Position numbers and translations under genes: made by a program. The notes below the pieces were generated by a model. The model was not told where the DNA came from. It saw nothing but the letters and a program-made list of their open reading frames with translations, and made no database searches. Below are positions 12,001-45,531 of a stretch of DNA of 45,531 nt, piece by piece (positions within the stretch are counted from its first letter, which is position 1; every line of letters begins with the position of its first letter). This stretch comes from a virus, in the IMG/VR virus record IMGVR_UViG_3300027973_001824, positions 1 through 45,531 of that record; one strand, given 5' to 3'.

Positions 12001-15000
12001 GAGTAAATCTGAAATAGACACGTTACTAAAACAGCACGGTAACGATGGGCGATTGATCAAGTATAGCAAACAACCCACAGTAACAGTAGGTTTAACTGGC
12101 GAAAACGACAAGTACGGCCGTGTGCTAGGTAACGTGTACATGAAAAAAGGCGACAACTTAGAAGCTGTTAATAGACGGTTAGTAGAGCTAGGCGCAGCAC
12201 CTATGGCATTTGGTGGCGCGTTACCTCGAAGCGGTCAAGACGCGTTAACTGCACTTCAAGCTAATGCGGCTAATACGCAACTAGGTGCAGTTAACGTAAC
12301 TGCCTCGCAAGCAGGTTTTGGCGCAGAAGCAACAATTAGCCAAGCGGCTCGTGATGAATACTTTAAACGACACTATATGAACTTTGAGCAAACTGCCGGA
12401 GCTGCGGCTTTACTGGGAGGCGGACTTACACTTGGTGGAAGTATGGCGGGCGCAGGTTTAGCCGGTATGGGCGTAGCCGGAGCCGGTGCGCTTGCAGGAG
12501 GACCTGCTTTTGCAATAGCTGCGGGTATCGCGGGTGCTGCGGGGTTAAGTTACGGTACCTACGCCTACCTTAATGACGTTAACGATACTTCAGTTGCAAA
12601 ACAACGAGAGCTCTATAATATTCAAAAAGCACAAAATACAGATGTTAATCGACGCGGTATAATGGCGCTAGCACTGAATAAAGCGGGTGTAATTGCTGAT
12701 CAAAACTTACCAAGTGCAATAAAGGGAGTGGAGCCGACTTGGGCGCAAAGCTTAGGTTTAAAAATTGCCAATTTAGCGGGGTACACGCAAACTCAGAAAG
12801 CCCTCGATACTGTAAACTCGCCCTCCGTCGTTGTAGACGCAGTAAAAAGTCTTGATGAAGAATTTTTAAAACGTCGCGAAACTGCGCCAGAAAATCAAAA
12901 AGCAGTGTATGACACTGTAATACAAAATCCTTTTGATAAAAACGGCACTCCGATGACTGTCTTGGAAGTTCAACAACAGTTAGACGGTATTTCCAAGTAC
13001 GCAACAGAGACGAACGACTCAAGACTTCAGAAATACGTAGGCGGATTTAATTCCTTGCGGGGTACAATAGCGACCGCACTTAATCCGCAGACATTGAAGT
13101 TAAGTGAGCTGTTTAGACAGTCTGACGTTGCTATTCCACAGTCGGTTATAGACGTAGGTGCTGGACCTGCATACCTCAGCGCAGGGAACGCTGATACAAA
13201 AAATGTTCCTTTTTCTGACCTCAACATGCTTAACTACACAGCAGATCAACAAGAAGCAATACTTAAGTATGGCGTACAGGCGATGGGCTCATTACGCAAC
13301 TATGGTCAACCCGCAAAAGAGTACGTAGATAACGCAATGGGCAAGTCTTTAGCTTTGCGTAATCAACGATTTAACACGTTTGTGGACGCTAATGCTATGA
13401 ACGCTATGTTTATGGGCACCGACTTTACCAAGTCTGCGACTAGTCTGCGCGGTACAGAGGGTGTAAAGCAAGCTGCGGAAAACATGCTCAATCAGTCTTA
13501 CTTCACTAAAGGTGCAGGATATAGCAACGAAAACAAAGACATGATTCGAACTGCTCAAAGAACAGCGGTAGATGCAATGTTAGAACAAGCTCGTGCGTTT
13601 AGAGAACAAGCAGACATGGCTCGACCGTTTACTACTGTGTTTCGTTCTACGTTTGCAAACTTAGTCACCGGTATGAATATTGCCGGGGACAACTTTCGTC
13701 AAATCTACGACACCATGGCTCAGGGTAATCCACTGTTTGCAATTGACTTTGCCAAGCAAAGCACTGGTTTAGACTGGAAACAATCAATTGCTTCGCAGTT
13801 GTATGTTCCCGGATTTAATGCACAGGGGGCAGAGAATGCACTACGACCGGGTTTAATGGCCGGTACATTTCAGACACCGTACGCAACTGGCCCACGTGCA
13901 AGTATTCAGTATGCAAGTGATTTGTACAACGATAAGAAATCATCGGGTATGCTTAATCCAGCAGAAATGTTAAACATCTTTCAGTCAGCTGCTCAAGGTC
14001 AAACTGAGTTAGTTCGCCGTCAGATTCAGTTTAACAATCAAATGCGTGATCTTAACCTTAATCACAATCGTGCGCTTGAGGATATTGCCCGCAATGGTAT
14101 GCGACAACTGGAAGACATTCACATAAATTACACACGGCAAATGATACAGCTTACGCAACAGAACGAAATAACGAAGCGTATGGACCGAGCAACCGTTAAC
14201 AAAAGTATTGAGTCGGCCGACATAACGCAGGCAGATCGTGTACAAGCACACGTCGTACAAGAGTCAGGTCAAATGTTTGCTCGTCACGCAGGTCAATCAA
14301 ACCCCGCAGGATTCTTAGCACGAATTCAAGGCACGGCTATGGAGAATGACCCCCAAGTTGTTGCTCTACGTGAAGCTTTAGCAAAGTACAACAGCATTAG
14401 TTACGATGACTCTGCGGGCAAACAATCGGCGTGGGATAAAGTAATTGAAGCCCGTAATCCGCTTGAAGGTAAAATTAAGCAGATGATGCAGGGAGCCACT
14501 CCACAAGACACCGCTAACTACGAATCGTACTTAGCACTCCTTGGCCGCGATCCTGCACGTGAAGCACAAGCACAAACTTACTCAAATCAACGTACCTCGC
14601 AATTTGTGGAAACCGCTGCAGAACGTAAAAGTTTGTTAAAGCAAAAAGAAGAATTACTTTATCAGCAAAGCGGTGAGGGCCTTACGCGACGTCAGCTGCA
14701 GAAAGGTATTCAAGATGCAAACGCAAGCGGTGATCCGTTACAGATAGCGGCCGCAAGAAAAGCAATGGACGACTTTGATATAAGTTCGCAAAAAACTGCT
14801 GACGCAGTTGCGTTAGTCAGTCAAAAACTTTCGGCTATATCAAATACGTCGGAAATGTTCGCGGACGCATGGACAGAAGCTTTTTTAAATATTAAGAATA
14901 ATGCAAGTACCACTGTGTTGGGCTTGGTGCAAAGTTTGGATGATTTCAATAGGAAAATGCAGCAGCAATTAGATGATCAAGACCTTCAGTTTGGTCGTCA

Positions 15001-28236: not shown

Positions 28237-29091
28237 ATGGCATTTGGTAAGATGATTCAAGAAGCACAGCAAGCGTCAGTGTCGGCCGGAAGCGCAAAGA
28301 GCATGTTCCTCGATTTGCACGAGGGTGTCCGTATCATTCGGTTCCTTCCCGATCCCGTGAATCCTTTGGAACCCTTGTTGGGGCCAACTGTGCTTCACGT
28401 GTGGCTTAAGGTGATGCGCGGTGGTGTGGAAGTACAACGTCGCATTTTTGTAGACAACGAAACTCGCCGTCTGTTACCCGAGTCGGTACAGGAGAGCGTA
28501 CGTCGTCGGTTCTTCATTAACGTGTACGACAAGAGCAAGGTGGTTAAGCTGGAGGACGGTAGTACCGTTTACGCCAACTTGCAGAATCAGTTCATTCAAG
28601 TCAACAAGGGCGAAGCTCGAGTGATGACTGATCCTCCGGCACCGAACAACTCGGTTGTTATACTTGAGGCCAGCGTTTCTGGTGGTCAAGGTGCTGGCGG
28701 TATGCTCAACGACATGGAGTCATTGGCGATGTCGGCACTAGATGCGGACAACAACTTGATTCCAATCACACAGATTGATTTTCAAATCACGACTCGTGGC
28801 AAAGGGCTTCAGACCAAGCGCCATGTGTACCTCGGTACGAACCGTGATCCATTGGCTCAGTTTGTGTACGATCTCCCCGTGTTTGATTTGGCCAACTTTG
28901 CCAAACCTTACCCAGCTGCAGCTATCCGCGACCTTATCAAGGGCGAGGACTACGGCGAGGTGGTCAAGGCGTACAACGTGACGGTCATGCCACAGTTGGT
29001 CTCACGCACAGCTGGCGTAGAGGCTACGGCGGTCGGGGTAGTGAAGGCGCCTACCGCTCCCATCGAATCGTTGTTTGACCAAGAGTTCTAG
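28237..29091 (+). CDS. Phage single-stranded DNA-binding protein (gp32-like)
   Basis: A 284-residue protein if it starts at ATG 28237 (GTG 28228 is an alternative; GGTGAG lies just upstream). The segment LHEGVRIIRFLPDP followed by basic and aromatic residues (WLKVMRGGVEVQRR, RRRFFINVYD, VYANLQNQF) resembles the OB-fold core of T4 gp32-type SSBs. The C-terminus ESLFDQEF is acidic with aromatic residues, as in SSB tails that bind replisome partners. The Zn-binding cysteines of T4 gp32 are absent. It has its own promoter and terminator, and the primase gene follows. Confidence 0.78.
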   Translation: MAFGKMIQEAQQASVSAGSAKSMFLDLHEGVRIIRFLPDPVNPLEPLLGPTVLHVWLKVMRGGVEVQRRIFVDNETRRLLPESVQESVRRRFFINVYDKSKVVKLEDGSTVYANLQNQFIQVNKGEARVMTDPPAPNNSVVILEASVSGGQGAGGMLNDMESLAMSALDADNNLIPITQIDFQITTRGKGLQTKRHVYLGTNRDPLAQFVYDLPVFDLANFAKPYPAAAIRDLIKGEDYGEVVKAYNVTVMPQLVSRTAGVEATAVGVVKAPTAPIESLFDQEF

Positions 29092-38076: not shown

Positions 38077-38269
38077 GATTATCAAAGCTGAGATGCGTGC
38101 TGCCCGTACAACTGTTGAAGAGTTGGCCGAGTATGCAGGCATCTCAGCTAAACGCCTCGAGGATATACTAGGGGGTACTAAAAAACCTAGCATTACTGAA
38201 GGCATCGCAATCGCCAAGTTTTTTGAATTTGATCCGTTACTTATTATTGGAAGGCACCATGACAATTAG
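38060..38269 (+). CDS. Small XRE-type helix-turn-helix regulator
   Basis: A 69-residue protein: TVEELAEYAGISAKRLEDILGG followed by KPSITEGIAIAKFF is the Cro/CI-type helix-turn-helix layout with its fourth helix. It is nearly all DNA-binding domain, so it would act as a small dimeric regulator. No strong SD site precedes ATG 38060, so translation may be coupled to the upstream gene. It does not by itself show lysogeny, because no integrase is present in the window. Confidence 0.78.
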   Translation: MTRTAEIIKAEMRAARTTVEELAEYAGISAKRLEDILGGTKKPSITEGIAIAKFFEFDPLLIIGRHHDN

Positions 38270-38972
38270 TATTGTATCTGTTACGCAGCCCGAGCCGGAG
38301 CTGAACATGACCGCGGAGGAGCTAGTAATTTACAATGCGCGCGTGTCTAATCCTGCTGGTCAACACAACCACTGGTCAGCACCCAAGCTGATCTACCACT
38401 TGATTCGCGAGAAACATTGGAGTCCGTTTGACATGGTTGATGTAACCATGGAGGTTACTACTACGCGGGATATATCACGGCAAATGATTCGTCATCGCAG
38501 TTTTGCAGTGCAGGAATTTAGTCAGCGATATGCTGACCCAACGACTGCGCTAGGATTTGTTGACCGTGAGGCACGACTACAAGATACTAAGAATCGGCAG
38601 AACAGTATCGAGCTAGAAAAGACCGAGGCAACTCGAGAGCTGCGTGAGCAATGGTACGCGCGGTTACAAGCAGTGATTAACTACGCACGGTTTACTTACG
38701 AGTGGGGCCTACAACGAGGTATTGCCAAGGAACAGCTGCGTGCGGTGCTGCCCGAGGGATTAACACTCTCCCGCCTGTACTTCAAGGGTAGTCTTCGCTC
38801 ATGGATGCACTACTGTCAGGTACGCATGCACCCATCGACACAGAAAGAGCACCGCGAGATTGCTGTAGCAGCGTGGGCCTTACTCGAGACAAAGTTCCCG
38901 GTGATTATCCCTGCCTGTAATGTACGCTTTGCAAAAGAAAAAGCGTTTGAAGAGGAGTACTGGAATGATTGA
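38259..38972 (+). CDS. thyX: Flavin-dependent thymidylate synthase
   Basis: A 237-residue protein with GGAAGG before ATG 38259. R78-H79-R80-x7-S88 is the ThyX signature, followed by QRYADP. IYNARVSNP and HWSPFDMVDVTMEV fit the family's N-terminal half, and LRAVLPEGLTLSRLYFKGSLRSWMHYCQVR the C-terminal half with flavin and substrate contacts. It converts dUMP to dTMP with methylene-tetrahydrofolate, FAD and NADPH. Neighbouring DUF1599-like gene overlaps its 3' end by 8 bp and may act in the same nucleotide pathway. Confidence 0.95.
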   Translation: MTISIVSVTQPEPELNMTAEELVIYNARVSNPAGQHNHWSAPKLIYHLIREKHWSPFDMVDVTMEVTTTRDISRQMIRHRSFAVQEFSQRYADPTTALGFVDREARLQDTKNRQNSIELEKTEATRELREQWYARLQAVINYARFTYEWGLQRGIAKEQLRAVLPEGLTLSRLYFKGSLRSWMHYCQVRMHPSTQKEHREIAVAAWALLETKFPVIIPACNVRFAKEKAFEEEYWND

Positions 38973-40986: not shown

Positions 40987-41062
40987 GCCAGCATAGCTCA
41001 GTGGATAGAGCAACTGCCTTCTAAGCAGTTGGCCATGGGTTCGAGCCCCGTTGCTGGTACCA
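40987..41062 (+). tRNA. tRNA-Arg (anticodon UCU), CCA encoded
   Basis: A complete cloverleaf: acceptor GCCAGCA/TGCTGGT (40987-40993 with 41052-41058), D stem GCTC/GAGC, anticodon stem ACTGC/GCAGT with loop CTTCTAA (anticodon TCT at 41020-41022), T stem ATGGG/CCCGT with loop TTCGAGC, discriminator A and encoded CCA (41060-41062). It reads AGA (and AGG by wobble). AGA is used regularly in the tail genes. Confidence 0.96.
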
Positions 41063-43553: not shown

Positions 43554-43718
43554 ATCGCAGCGCATCGCAACGCCAAAAACCAAACGTGGGTTTCCCCCCG
43601 GGCCCCCCTTCGGGCGCTCTACCATCAATATATGAGACGAGCAATCAATACAGTAGGCGCAAAAAAAGGGGGGCCACTAATTTGGCCGACACCCAGTCAG
43701 CGTAACAAAAAAAGAGAC

Positions 43719-43784: not shown

Positions 43785-44201
43785 CTACCAGATGAGTGCC
43801 CCCGGTGGTACGATCAAGCGTGCGTACCCGTAGAGATTGGCCTTCCCTGACAAGAAGTCGGCTCCATCCTCACCGGTTGTCCACGCGGCATGCACCCATT
43901 TGTTGGTGCGCTTCTCCCAGAACGTTACTCCGTCCTTGTCGAGACGACCAATAACGTATCGCGCGTACAGTACCTGCTCGAGGCTGGCCACCATAGCGCC
44001 GTCCTTGTAGTGCTGCACAACGGTCTCCTCGTTCTGCCGTACCAGCGCGATCACCTCGTCACCGTCGAGCTCCTTGAGATACTCGCGATACAGAACGAGC
44101 ACCGTACGCAGGTCGTGCATGCTCGCGTGCTTGACACGACGATCGTAGCTGACCCACTTGTCACTGCCGGTGTAGTCGAAGTCACTGTCGAAATTACCCA
44201 T
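43785..44201 (-). CDS. Last gene of the minus-strand operon, unrecognised
   Basis: A 138-residue protein. ATG at 44201 is chosen because GAGGTG precedes it by a few bases; an upstream ATG (44213) lies next to that ribosome binding site. It begins MGNFDSDFDYTGSDKWVSYD and is acidic and aromatic, with a helical middle (DLRTVLVLYREYLKELDGDE) and a C-terminal part rich in Trp (VTFWEKRTNKWVHAAWTTGED). No family is recognised. The 53-nt junction upstream carries the shared hairpin cassette. Confidence 0.75.
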   Translation of the reverse strand: MGNFDSDFDYTGSDKWVSYDRRVKHASMHDLRTVLVLYREYLKELDGDEVIALVRQNEETVVQHYKDGAMVASLEQVLYARYVIGRLDKDGVTFWEKRTNKWVHAAWTTGEDGADFLSGKANLYGYARLIVPPGALIW

Positions 44202-44222
44202 GATACACCTCATAACACTAAC

Positions 44223-44244
44223 GCAGGAAGTACGTTACCCCTGC
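44223..44244 (-). promoter_or_regulatory. Junction hairpin A of the minus-strand operon
   Basis: On the minus strand, stem GCAGG/CCTGC is extended by two G-U pairs and closes the loop TAACGTAC. It lies 10 nt after the upstream stop and 21 nt before the start at 44201. No T-tract follows. Confidence 0.85.
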
Positions 44245-44254
44245 ACTCGACCTA

Positions 44255-44557
44255 TTACTTGGACTTGTAGTTGGTCAACTCGATGTACCGTGGATCGAGT
44301 GTGCCACTGCGCTCTATTACGCGTGCATACTGCGTGCAGACCTCCCGACCCGTCACATACGTAACGTTGACAGCATAGTGCTCCGGATAGATAAACGCAC
44401 GTGGTTTGTACGACGGGTCACGGGTGATCTCCTGAATGTGGATGTCGTCCGTGTCGTGCTTGTGACGGAGGTAGTTGAGGACAGCCTCACGCAAACTGTG
44501 CCGACTGCTCGTATCGCCGAACCCGAAGTGCAAATCGTAGATTGTTGAGAAGGTCAT
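44255..44557 (-). CDS. Small protein of the minus-strand operon, unrecognised
   Basis: A 100-residue protein. The ATG at 44557 is chosen over in-frame upstream ATGs because GAGGTGTACC lies directly before it, as at the other junctions. It begins MTFSTIYDLHFGFGDTSSRH, then has a helix (LREAVLNYLRHKHD) and a beta-like second half (AFIYPEHYAVNVTYVTG). No motif recognised. Upstream in-frame codons cross the conserved hairpin and should not be translated. Confidence 0.75.
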   Translation of the reverse strand: MTFSTIYDLHFGFGDTSSRHSLREAVLNYLRHKHDTDDIHIQEITRDPSYKPRAFIYPEHYAVNVTYVTGREVCTQYARVIERSGTLDPRYIELTNYKSK

Positions 44558-44578
44558 GGTACACCTCATTATGCTAAT

Positions 44579-44600
44579 ACCGGAAGTATGTTGCCCCGGT
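44579..44600 (-). promoter_or_regulatory. Junction hairpin B of the minus-strand operon
   Basis: Stem ACCGG/CCGGT plus two G-U pairs closes the loop CAACATAC. It lies 10 nt after the upstream stop and 21 nt before the start at 44557. Compared with the other copies, both arms changed together at the A-U to C-G pair. Confidence 0.85.
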
Positions 44601-44610
44601 GCTCTACCTA

Positions 44611-44871
44611 CTAGCGATACGGTAACACGTGCTCCGTATGCCACGCGTCAATCAGTTCGATTTTACCCCACTGATCCTCGTTGAACTCAGCGCGGTTGGT
44701 AAGCAACGACATCAACGTGCCGTCAAAACCATCGTTCCAATCGTCGAGAAAAAAATCGACGATCAGGTGCTGCACCTCAGGATGCATGGGGTGGCCGAGC
44801 GGAGTCATGAGAAACAACGCCTTGACGTGTCCTTTGAGTTGGATTTTGGTTGCGTGTGTTGGTCGTGTCAT
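44611..44871 (-). CDS. Small protein of the minus-strand operon, unrecognised
   Basis: An 86-residue protein with GAGGTATACC directly before ATG (44871). It begins MTRPTHATKIQLKGHVKALF and continues with an acidic helical part (VQHLIVDFFLDDWNDGFDG, then FNEDQWGKIELIDAWHTE). It is rich in Asp, His and Trp and carries no recognised motif. Small acidic early proteins of phages often bind host enzymes; here that is only a possibility. Confidence 0.75.
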   Translation of the reverse strand: MTRPTHATKIQLKGHVKALFLMTPLGHPMHPEVQHLIVDFFLDDWNDGFDGTLMSLLTNRAEFNEDQWGKIELIDAWHTEHVLPYR

Positions 44872-44891
44872 GGTATACCTCGTTGCTCAAT

Positions 44892-44913
44892 ACAGGAAGT
44901 ACGTTACCCCTGT
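44892..44913 (-). promoter_or_regulatory. Junction hairpin C of the minus-strand operon
   Basis: Stem ACAGG/CCTGT plus two G-U pairs closes the loop TAACGTAC. It lies 10 nt after the upstream stop and 20 nt before the start at 44871. Confidence 0.85.
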
Positions 44914-44923
44914 GCTCTGTGAA

Positions 44924-45388
44924 CTAATACCCGAGGTCACGGTCGCGTTTTTCTAACTTCACCATGCTCTCGTAAACATCTTGAATGTATCGGTACTCCT
45001 GCCCGTCGTCACCGCAAAGGCCCGCGTCGTTCTCGTGCATTTCCGCCCGTAGCTGCATCCAGCGCTCGGGCGTCAGAATAAGGGGATCTTCGAGCTCGGT
45101 CGTAGCCACGTCACAATCGTCCTTGTTTAGGGAGTGAAGATAGACGTTATACTCCAACTCGAGTTGACGGATTGCCTCCCACCGCTCACTGGACCACTCG
45201 CCGGTAGGACACCCCACTACCTCTGCGCTGTACTCAAGGAACACGCCGTGCGCGTTTACGCCCTTGAGCAAAGCGACACGTCGTACTTCCTTATCTAAGT
45301 CCGCCATGGTACACTGTACCACAAACGTAACGGTAACCGGAGACACGCCAAAGCCGTAGACCACGCGGAAAAACTGTAACTGATCCAT
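44924..45388 (-). CDS. Protein of the minus-strand operon, unrecognised
   Basis: A 154-residue protein with GAGGTGACAT before ATG (45388). It begins MDQLQFFRVVYGFGVSPVTV, a beta-like start, followed by helical and acidic stretches (SSERWEAIRQLELEYNVYLH, LTPERWMQLRAEMHENDAG). The RWEAIRQLE and RWMQLRAEM segments are similar to each other and may be a weak internal repeat. No enzymatic motif is seen. Confidence 0.78.
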   Translation of the reverse strand: MDQLQFFRVVYGFGVSPVTVTFVVQCTMADLDKEVRRVALLKGVNAHGVFLEYSAEVVGCPTGEWSSERWEAIRQLELEYNVYLHSLNKDDCDVATTELEDPLILTPERWMQLRAEMHENDAGLCGDDGQEYRYIQDVYESMVKLEKRDRDLGY

Positions 45389-45409
45389 ATGTCACCTCTG
45401 TATACTATT

Positions 45410-45431
45410 GCAGAAAGTACGTTACCTCTGC
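45410..45431 (-). promoter_or_regulatory. Junction hairpin D of the minus-strand operon
   Basis: Stem GCAGA/TCTGC plus two G-U pairs closes the loop TAACGTAC. It lies 10 nt after the upstream stop and 21 nt before the start at 45388. Relative to copy A, a G-C pair is replaced by A-U on both arms. Confidence 0.85.
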
Positions 45432-45441
45432 GCTCTGCCGA

Positions 45442-45531
45442 CTAATGGTTCTTGAACACGACGTTCATGGGTATCAAGTACTCACCGACCTTGCGACGGT
45501 ACAGCATGTACTTGGGCTCGAGCGGATGTGG
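45442..45531 (-). CDS. 3' end of a further minus-strand gene (cut by window edge)
   Basis: The frame is open from the right edge to TAG at 45442-45444 and shows the last 29 residues, ending in EYLIPMNVVFKNH. The Lys/Arg-rich part MLYRRKVG precedes it. The stop is exactly 10 nt before hairpin D, the same distance as at the other junctions, which supports it as a real gene end. Confidence 0.7.
   Translation of the reverse strand, partial: PHPLEPKYMLYRRKVGEYLIPMNVVFKNH

Follow-up and report, generated by a model that had tools for sequence, protein, structure and literature searches.

A covarying RNA element at the gene junctions of a phage operon and in related phages, a candidate intercistronic control signal

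The operon and its four visible junctions

Four consecutive gene junctions in the DNA of an uncultured phage carry what looks like the same short hairpin, each time with a different stem, which raises the question of whether these copies form one RNA-level element and what such an element might do between unrelated genes. The window, that is, the whole stretch of 45,531 nucleotides that was analyzed, is an IMG/VR fragment (a 45.5-kb record); all genomes compared with it were likewise uncultured, and the gene calls are simple calls made in this analysis. The junctions lie in a minus-strand operon at window positions 43785-45531, which contains four genes in full and the 3' part of another:

45442..45531, minus strand: 3' end of the first visible operon gene, cut by the contig end; the product matches the C-terminus of the relatives' GP88/DUF7227-type early protein
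44924..45388, minus strand: early-type gene, 154 aa, without known family; homologue in G016 (49%)
44611..44871, minus strand: early-type gene, 86 aa, without known family; weak homologues in G010 and G023
44255..44557, minus strand: gene, 100 aa, without known family
43785..44201, minus strand: last operon gene, 138 aa, without known family
43672..43687, minus strand: terminator-like hairpin with a T run, 3' of the last gene; a consensus match only, with a chance expectation about equal in number

The product of the truncated gene showed 50% identity to that of the related genome G005 and also had matches in G004, G009 and G012; its homologue in G011 matched PF17338 and PF23872. A first-pass annotation had described the coding regions as unrelated to one another, and this was borne out by comparing their products. 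Among annotated phage records, neither DNA resembling the operon region nor an isolate match was found, the isolate relatives of the window DNA polymerase were only distant, and a search for an overlapping contig beyond the contig end revealed none. Early genes resembling GP88 and L5 gp82 point tentatively to actinobacterial phages; a WhiB gene, sought as a pointer to actinobacterial hosts, was not found. Elsewhere, the window contained a ThyX-type thymidylate synthase gene (38223-38972), a tRNA-Arg(tct) gene (40987-41062) and a single open frame of more than 5,155 codons that runs off the contig end (2-15469). This frame encodes proline-rich repeats and an SNase-like domain, and its homologues in relatives reach up to 6,477 aa.

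The minus strand of the window carries four exact copies of GGYAACRTACTT (at 45426, 44908, 44595 and 44239), and the 45.5-kb record contained no further exact copies of this core. The gaps of cassettes 1-4 measured 53, 52, 53 and 53 nt, and each consisted of a stop codon, 10 nt, a 22-nt hairpin, a spacer of 21, 20, 21 and 21 nt, respectively, and ATG:

45386..45444, minus strand: cassette 1; stop TAG 45444-45442; flank GAGC 45435-45432; stem GCAGA 45431-45427 / TCTGC 45414-45410 around core GGTAACGTACTT 45426-45415, stem probability 0.82; GAGGT 45398-45394; start ATG 45388-45386
44869..44926, minus strand: cassette 2; stop TAG 44926-44924; flank GAGC 44917-44914; stem ACAGG 44913-44909 / CCTGT 44896-44892 around core GGTAACGTACTT 44908-44897, stem probability 0.85; GAGGT 44881-44877; start ATG 44871-44869
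44555..44613, minus strand: cassette 3; stop TAG 44613-44611; flank GAGC 44604-44601; stem ACCGG 44600-44596 / CCGGT 44583-44579 around core GGCAACATACTT 44595-44584, stem probability 0.93; GAGGT 44567-44563; start ATG 44557-44555
44199..44257, minus strand: cassette 4; stop TAA 44257-44255, followed directly by TAG; flank GAGT 44248-44245; stem GCAGG 44244-44240 / CCTGC 44227-44223 around core GGTAACGTACTT 44239-44228, stem probability 0.99; GAGGT 44211-44207; start ATG 44201-44199

The first-pass annotation had reported this layout, compensatory changes among the stems and a fixed GAGGT ribosome site; the layout and a GAGGT 5' of each ATG were seen at all four junctions, and the four different stems all paired. 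Its 5' flank, RGAGYRC, should read NGAGYRC, as the copy at 44239 has CGAGTGC, and its wording "every junction" holds for the four visible ones, with the contig ending inside the fifth gene. The GG/TT oppositions that it called fixed were constant in the window and not in the relatives, where UG/UU occurs in some G011 copies and CU faces GG in the "C" variant. Cassette 1 scored 70.7 bits with one covariance model (CM R1) and an E-value of 3e-8 with a second (CM R2), and both models also matched cassettes 2-4. Local RNA folding gave stem probabilities of 0.82-0.99 across the four copies, and their fold energies were unexceptional (z -0.44 to 0.41); energy-only folding was thus uninformative, and the evidence for the fold is comparative. 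An intrinsic terminator was rejected because none of the four hairpins is followed by a T run.

Covariation and pseudoknot pairing in related phages

Relatives were collected through the DNA polymerase (11, then 15 uncultured contigs) and through an alignment of the intein-bearing terminase (51 contigs), and the contigs had replication and structural genes in common, in conserved order. As a separate observation, the large terminase of relatives contains an intein-like insertion directly after the nucleotide-binding motif (GGRAIGK-CQPASARV ... VVHN-S; L048:3636-6227, with homologues in L042 and L054), which scored 34.1 bits with Pfam Intein_splicing at a cut-off of 35.8.

The element was found in five related uncultured phages, G009 (to which G022 is near-identical), G010, G011, G016 and G023, and G012 contained one related copy; it was not found in eleven relatives (G004, G005, G017-G021, G025, G029, G036 and G038). 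Over 0.98 Mb, a covariance model built from the aligned copies revealed 28 places at E < 0.06; these were without exception known copies, most of them members of the model by construction, and all 28 were sense-oriented and 5' of a start codon, and none lay in the eleven element-less relatives. Pattern scans of viral contigs outside the clade gave chance matches only, without a stem. A genome carried up to about 15 elements before unrelated genes, one per gene or gene pair and always between the stop codon and the ribosome site. At the equivalent junctions of G004 and G005, we found a terminator-like repeat and, between it and the ribosome site, a shared sequence of the form TTTTTGTTATA..AGTGG.

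To avoid circularity, 24 copies were chosen by their unpaired core and start codon alone, with pairing ignored. These copies contained 17 distinct stems, and 96% of the stem positions were paired, a value that none of 10,000 permutations of the partners reached (mean 67%); two rows were scored in an adjusted register (one base inserted between core and stem), and the G023 35384 row was still one base off, so that 96% is slightly low. Ten similar cores that do not belong to the element were 58% paired. In a 21-copy MAFFT alignment, 9 of the 11 pairs varied on both sides, and the covariation of 0.416 was reached in none of 500 shuffles (0.168) and fell to at most 0.145 in slid registers. The comparison of copies strongly supports an RNA-level element that is shared by the junctions and by the relatives. 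The first-pass annotation had assigned the fold to the transcript, and this was upheld by its restriction to the sense strand, its covariation in the larger alignment and its recurrence in related phages. Two refuting conditions that the annotation had named, an absence of copies from relatives and a lack of covariation, were thus not borne out.

As judged from the covariation of both helices, the element of the relatives usually takes the form 5'-[a]-AG-[b]-GG(A)YAA-[a']-..AACUU-[b']-3', a pseudoknot of the H type; the 22-nt hairpin noted at first stands and corresponds to the second helix of this fold in most long-loop copies of relatives. In these copies, the four bases before AG pair with the four after the loop YAA (for example, CTGG/CCAG, TCGG/CCGA, ACTG/CAGT, CCTG/CAGG and GCTG/CAGT). 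Helix a was located by rule and had no part in choosing the 12 long-loop copies; all four pairs were present in 11 of them and three of four in the remaining one. A further set (GCGG/CCGC, ACGG/CCGT, GTGG/CCAC, ATGG/CCAT and CCGG/CCGG), drawn from the C and D types of G011 and G016 and from leader copies of G009 and G010, illustrates the helix and does not test it, since its members were listed on account of their pairing. The window copies are of the short-loop type with a/a' limited to 1-2 bp beside AG, and we therefore make no claim of a pseudoknot in the window; a longer first helix was sought there, and only the last one or two pairs were found. Pairing of the loop with downstream sequence occurred in single copies only and was unconserved. 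A generic pseudoknot search over all spacers was kept for reading known copies because element-less spacers also scored high. We also observed that GAG occurs with GG and GAA with UG in 24 of 24 copies of both the short and long types, which suggests a contact between linker and helix, the GAA copies being mostly near-duplicates.

Other folds were observed at junctions of the relatives. A second element with covarying stems has the letters CCUG..GGAU (CTCAC-CTGTGTCGGAT-GTGAG, CTCGC..GCGAG and CCCAC..GTGGG), is possibly another pseudoknot with the flank AAC(G), and was located at G009 56725, 61747, 62110 and 63051, G010 13754, 14150, 14757 and 18415, and G011 72158 and 73082. In longer leader versions, the pseudoknot is followed by CCATT and by another hairpin whose stem varies (G009 57514, 57808, 58433 and 58756; G010 15545 and 19000); these versions are not directly at a called start codon. 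Additional repeated long intergenic hairpins with matching arm changes, namely GTGTCCATGCCGGAGCATGGACAC / GTGTACATG..CATGTACAC and the GCGGAGTAGTAAAGTGCTACTCCGC family, were found at G005 12645-14269 (listed on the minus strand), in G012 and the 64-68 kb region of G009, and at G017 12986 and 13183.

Exchange of joints and candidate functions

The element-bearing region is the fast-changing part of the genomes, and the genes behind the elements are mutually unrelated. The joint of the ArdC-like gene was of the short type in G011, of the long type in G010, a CCUG..GGAU pseudoknot-like element in G009 and a terminator-promoter in G004. The joint 3' of the GP88-like gene was of the short type in the window; G011 has type C in this place, and G009 has a plain hairpin. 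The same short type that precedes the cassette 1 gene precedes its G016 homologue, and a C-like variant stands in front of the G010 homologue of the cassette 2 gene. Since orthologous genes bear different variants, hairpins or a terminator-promoter, the joint is modular and not gene-specific. Additionally, the stop codon before the element was TAG in about 20 of the 24 copies, compared with about one third of genes overall, and cassette 4 of the window has TAATAG. This excess suits a cassette that moves together with its stop codon; it could instead be a habit of early genes.

Across the 24 copies, the median spacing was 12 nt between the stop and helix b and 22 nt between the helix and the start, the latter being 19-23 nt in 16 copies and 32-40 nt in 8. 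At these median distances, the fold would sit between the footprints of a terminating and an initiating ribosome. In the window, the hairpin lies roughly 10 nt past the stop and leaves some 20 nt free ahead of the start, and it could stay folded while one ribosome terminates on its upstream side and another initiates on its downstream side. Sequestering of the ribosome site was not supported, as the ensemble pairing probability had a median of 0.00 and was at most 0.12 (n = 24 copies); in cassette 2 alone, the minimum-energy fold paired the core with the ribosome site.

Together, these results suggest a shared, previously undescribed control signal at the messenger-RNA level. The common RNA-level element proposed at first is strongly supported, and the operator, ribosome-recruiting element and processing site named with it are candidate roles. 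The reading that we ranked first, with a probability of roughly 0.4, is an intercistronic control element that is recognized by a trans-acting factor and through which many unrelated early genes are tuned together; its mechanism is inferred. The unpaired letters (AG, YAA and AAC) and the G-U pairs would offer a surface for a single factor, most likely a phage or host RNA-binding protein, which would bind beside every ribosome site of the operon and switch or tune the translation of many unrelated early genes jointly, the cassette being a modular joint that stays in use as genes come and go. Recognition is favored by the conservation of unpaired letters, whereas the exchange with other hairpin types favors a structural role. 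Indeed, the CCUG..GGAU pseudoknot type and plain long hairpins are similarly placed within these operons, so that a purely structural role fits equally well; the window copies, which have no demonstrable second helix, also count against a factor. Those genes confined to element-bearing phages that were checked had no RNA-binding annotation, and no binding protein was found. A conserved ssDNA-binding-like protein of 284-288 aa is encoded at window 28237-29091; that it is the binding factor, or a phage single-strand binding protein, is a guess, and a profile search of solved structures gave no match for it. We give a chance somewhat below even to an undescribed class of H-type pseudoknot, several variants of which would act as a general, exchangeable intercistronic control module of the clade's whole early operon and be served by one dedicated factor.

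Ranked second, and in our view rather unlikely, is a joint for mRNA processing or stabilization, at which a ribonuclease would cut or be blocked, so that polycistronic early RNA would yield separately stable messages of one or two genes, much as with the RNase III sites of phage T7, each message being protected at its 5' end by the fold. The placement of one element per gene or gene pair in the interval from stop to ribosome site, the other hairpin types in the same place, the terminator and promoter-like sequences of G004/G005 as an alternative way of making units, and the swapping of types among orthologous genes all suit this reading. However, the conserved unpaired letters exceed the needs of a barrier, no element-associated nuclease gene was found, and a stem of 5 bp with two G-U pairs is short for RNase III.

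An improbable reading is that of a factor-free structure that recruits or positions the ribosome or insulates it from ribosomes terminating upstream. In its favor, the spacing is fixed to both stop and start, and GAGGT ribosome sites were in excess behind the element, with p 0.0015 in G000 and p 0.0002 in G011; no such enrichment was present in G009, G010, G016 and G023, and a passive spacer needs no conserved loop letters. Still less probable is a small-molecule riboswitch, in which the pseudoknot would bind a metabolite, e.g., a nucleotide, and control each early gene. Small riboswitches are typically H-type pseudoknots with conserved joining letters and an adjoining ribosome site, and the conserved letters of the element are located where a pocket would form. 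Unlike known riboswitches, however, the element precedes unrelated genes in numbers of up to about 15 per genome, the computed ensembles leave the ribosome site unpaired with it, and no Rfam riboswitch matched.

It is very improbable that pseudoknots released from the early messages are decoy RNAs mimicking ToxI-type antitoxins (type III toxin-antitoxin) against a host ribonuclease toxin: the size (about 33-36 nt), the pseudoknot topology and the abundance of copies in an operon of early type, which also has a gene for an ArdC-like anti-restriction protein, are reminiscent of such a role, whereas the copies are dispersed, one per junction and always at gene starts, without tandem repeats, no Rfam antitoxin family matched, and a ToxN-like gene was not found in a weak search whose control was silent as well. 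Just as slight are the prospects of an operator, promoter or recombination joint acting as DNA and palindromic by coincidence, already disfavored: modular exchange between junctions and the frequent inclusion of the TAG stop codon would suit a recombination joint, whereas the stems vary freely with pairing kept, two interleaved helices covary, the GG/TT oppositions pair only in the RNA of this strand, all copies have a single orientation, and the junction scan revealed no convincing promoter or terminator site.

To our knowledge, each phage translational operator described to date controls one gene or a few. Here, a compact RNA fold recurs gene after gene, is kept while neighboring genes are replaced, and is interchanged with other folds occupying the same position. 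If a trans-acting factor reads the element, a single protein would control a whole operon post-transcriptionally, and the cassette would be a ready-made joint for gene addition; if it is a processing or stabilizing joint, it would show how small folds can divide the operon of a phage into individual messages. Exact mutants can be derived from the conserved letters and the covarying helices.

Comparison with known systems

In Rfam 15, the whole window matched only tRNA at the gathering score, the window operon had no match at E-values up to 10, and the relatives gave only weak matches, all below cut-off. The nearest family was the DUF805 RNA (RF03081), with scores of 24.1 bits at best (G011) and 12.6 bits at a cut-off of 51.1, and without a match in the window. 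This RNA of Bacteroidota resembles the "D" variant of G011 (GTGGAGTCGAGTAACCACGTTAAAA) in helix a, the AG linker and an A-rich third linker, and the consensus GUGG-AG-N..AACCAC-UUAAAA is common to the Bacteroidota examples and this one phage variant. In contrast, its conserved 3' part (..GAGUAGG..) after the first helix is absent from the phage copies, and a test for a second helix in the Bacteroidota examples was not significant. With a score below cut-off and no significant second helix, it was rejected as a parent family; because the second helix was not demonstrable and the remainder differs, we regard it as a lead and not as a membership.

The start-associated sequences (SAS/ESAS) of cluster K mycobacteriophages, which the first-pass annotation named as a conceptual parallel, are like the element in being repeated and tied to the starts of a subset of non-structural genes (PMC3203893). 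About half of them have an additional upstream inverted repeat, with 17-bp repeats conserved in sequence (PMC3203893). Unlike the element, the SAS is a fixed 13-bp sequence, 5'-GGGATAGGAGCCC, located 3-7 bp from the start and without covarying stems, so that the parallel extends to position and nothing further (PMC3203893). Before the four window starts, the 13-bp GGGATAGGAGCCC was absent, and GAGGT with 5 nt was found instead.

The early RNase III sites of phage T7 are hairpins with long stems at the junctions of the early operon. The element is similar to them in being a hairpin at the junctions of an early-type operon and different in its short pseudoknots and conserved joining letters.

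The operator of T4 gene 32 serves one gene per genome, is used by the single-strand binding protein for autoregulation, and has conserved letters that differ from those of the element. Unlike this operator, the element occurs in many copies before unrelated genes and has no known binder. In the relatives, the element is usually, like the T4/T2 operator with its two short stacked helices, an H-type pseudoknot of phage mRNA located 5' of the ribosome site (PMC3014915, PMC535899); in the window copies, whose first helix measures 1-2 bp, this fold was not demonstrable. According to a 2010 review, the T4-type pseudoknot is possibly the sole viral example used for translational autoregulation (PMC3014915). 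Of the systems compared, the one that the element most resembles in kind is the T4 gene 32 pseudoknot.
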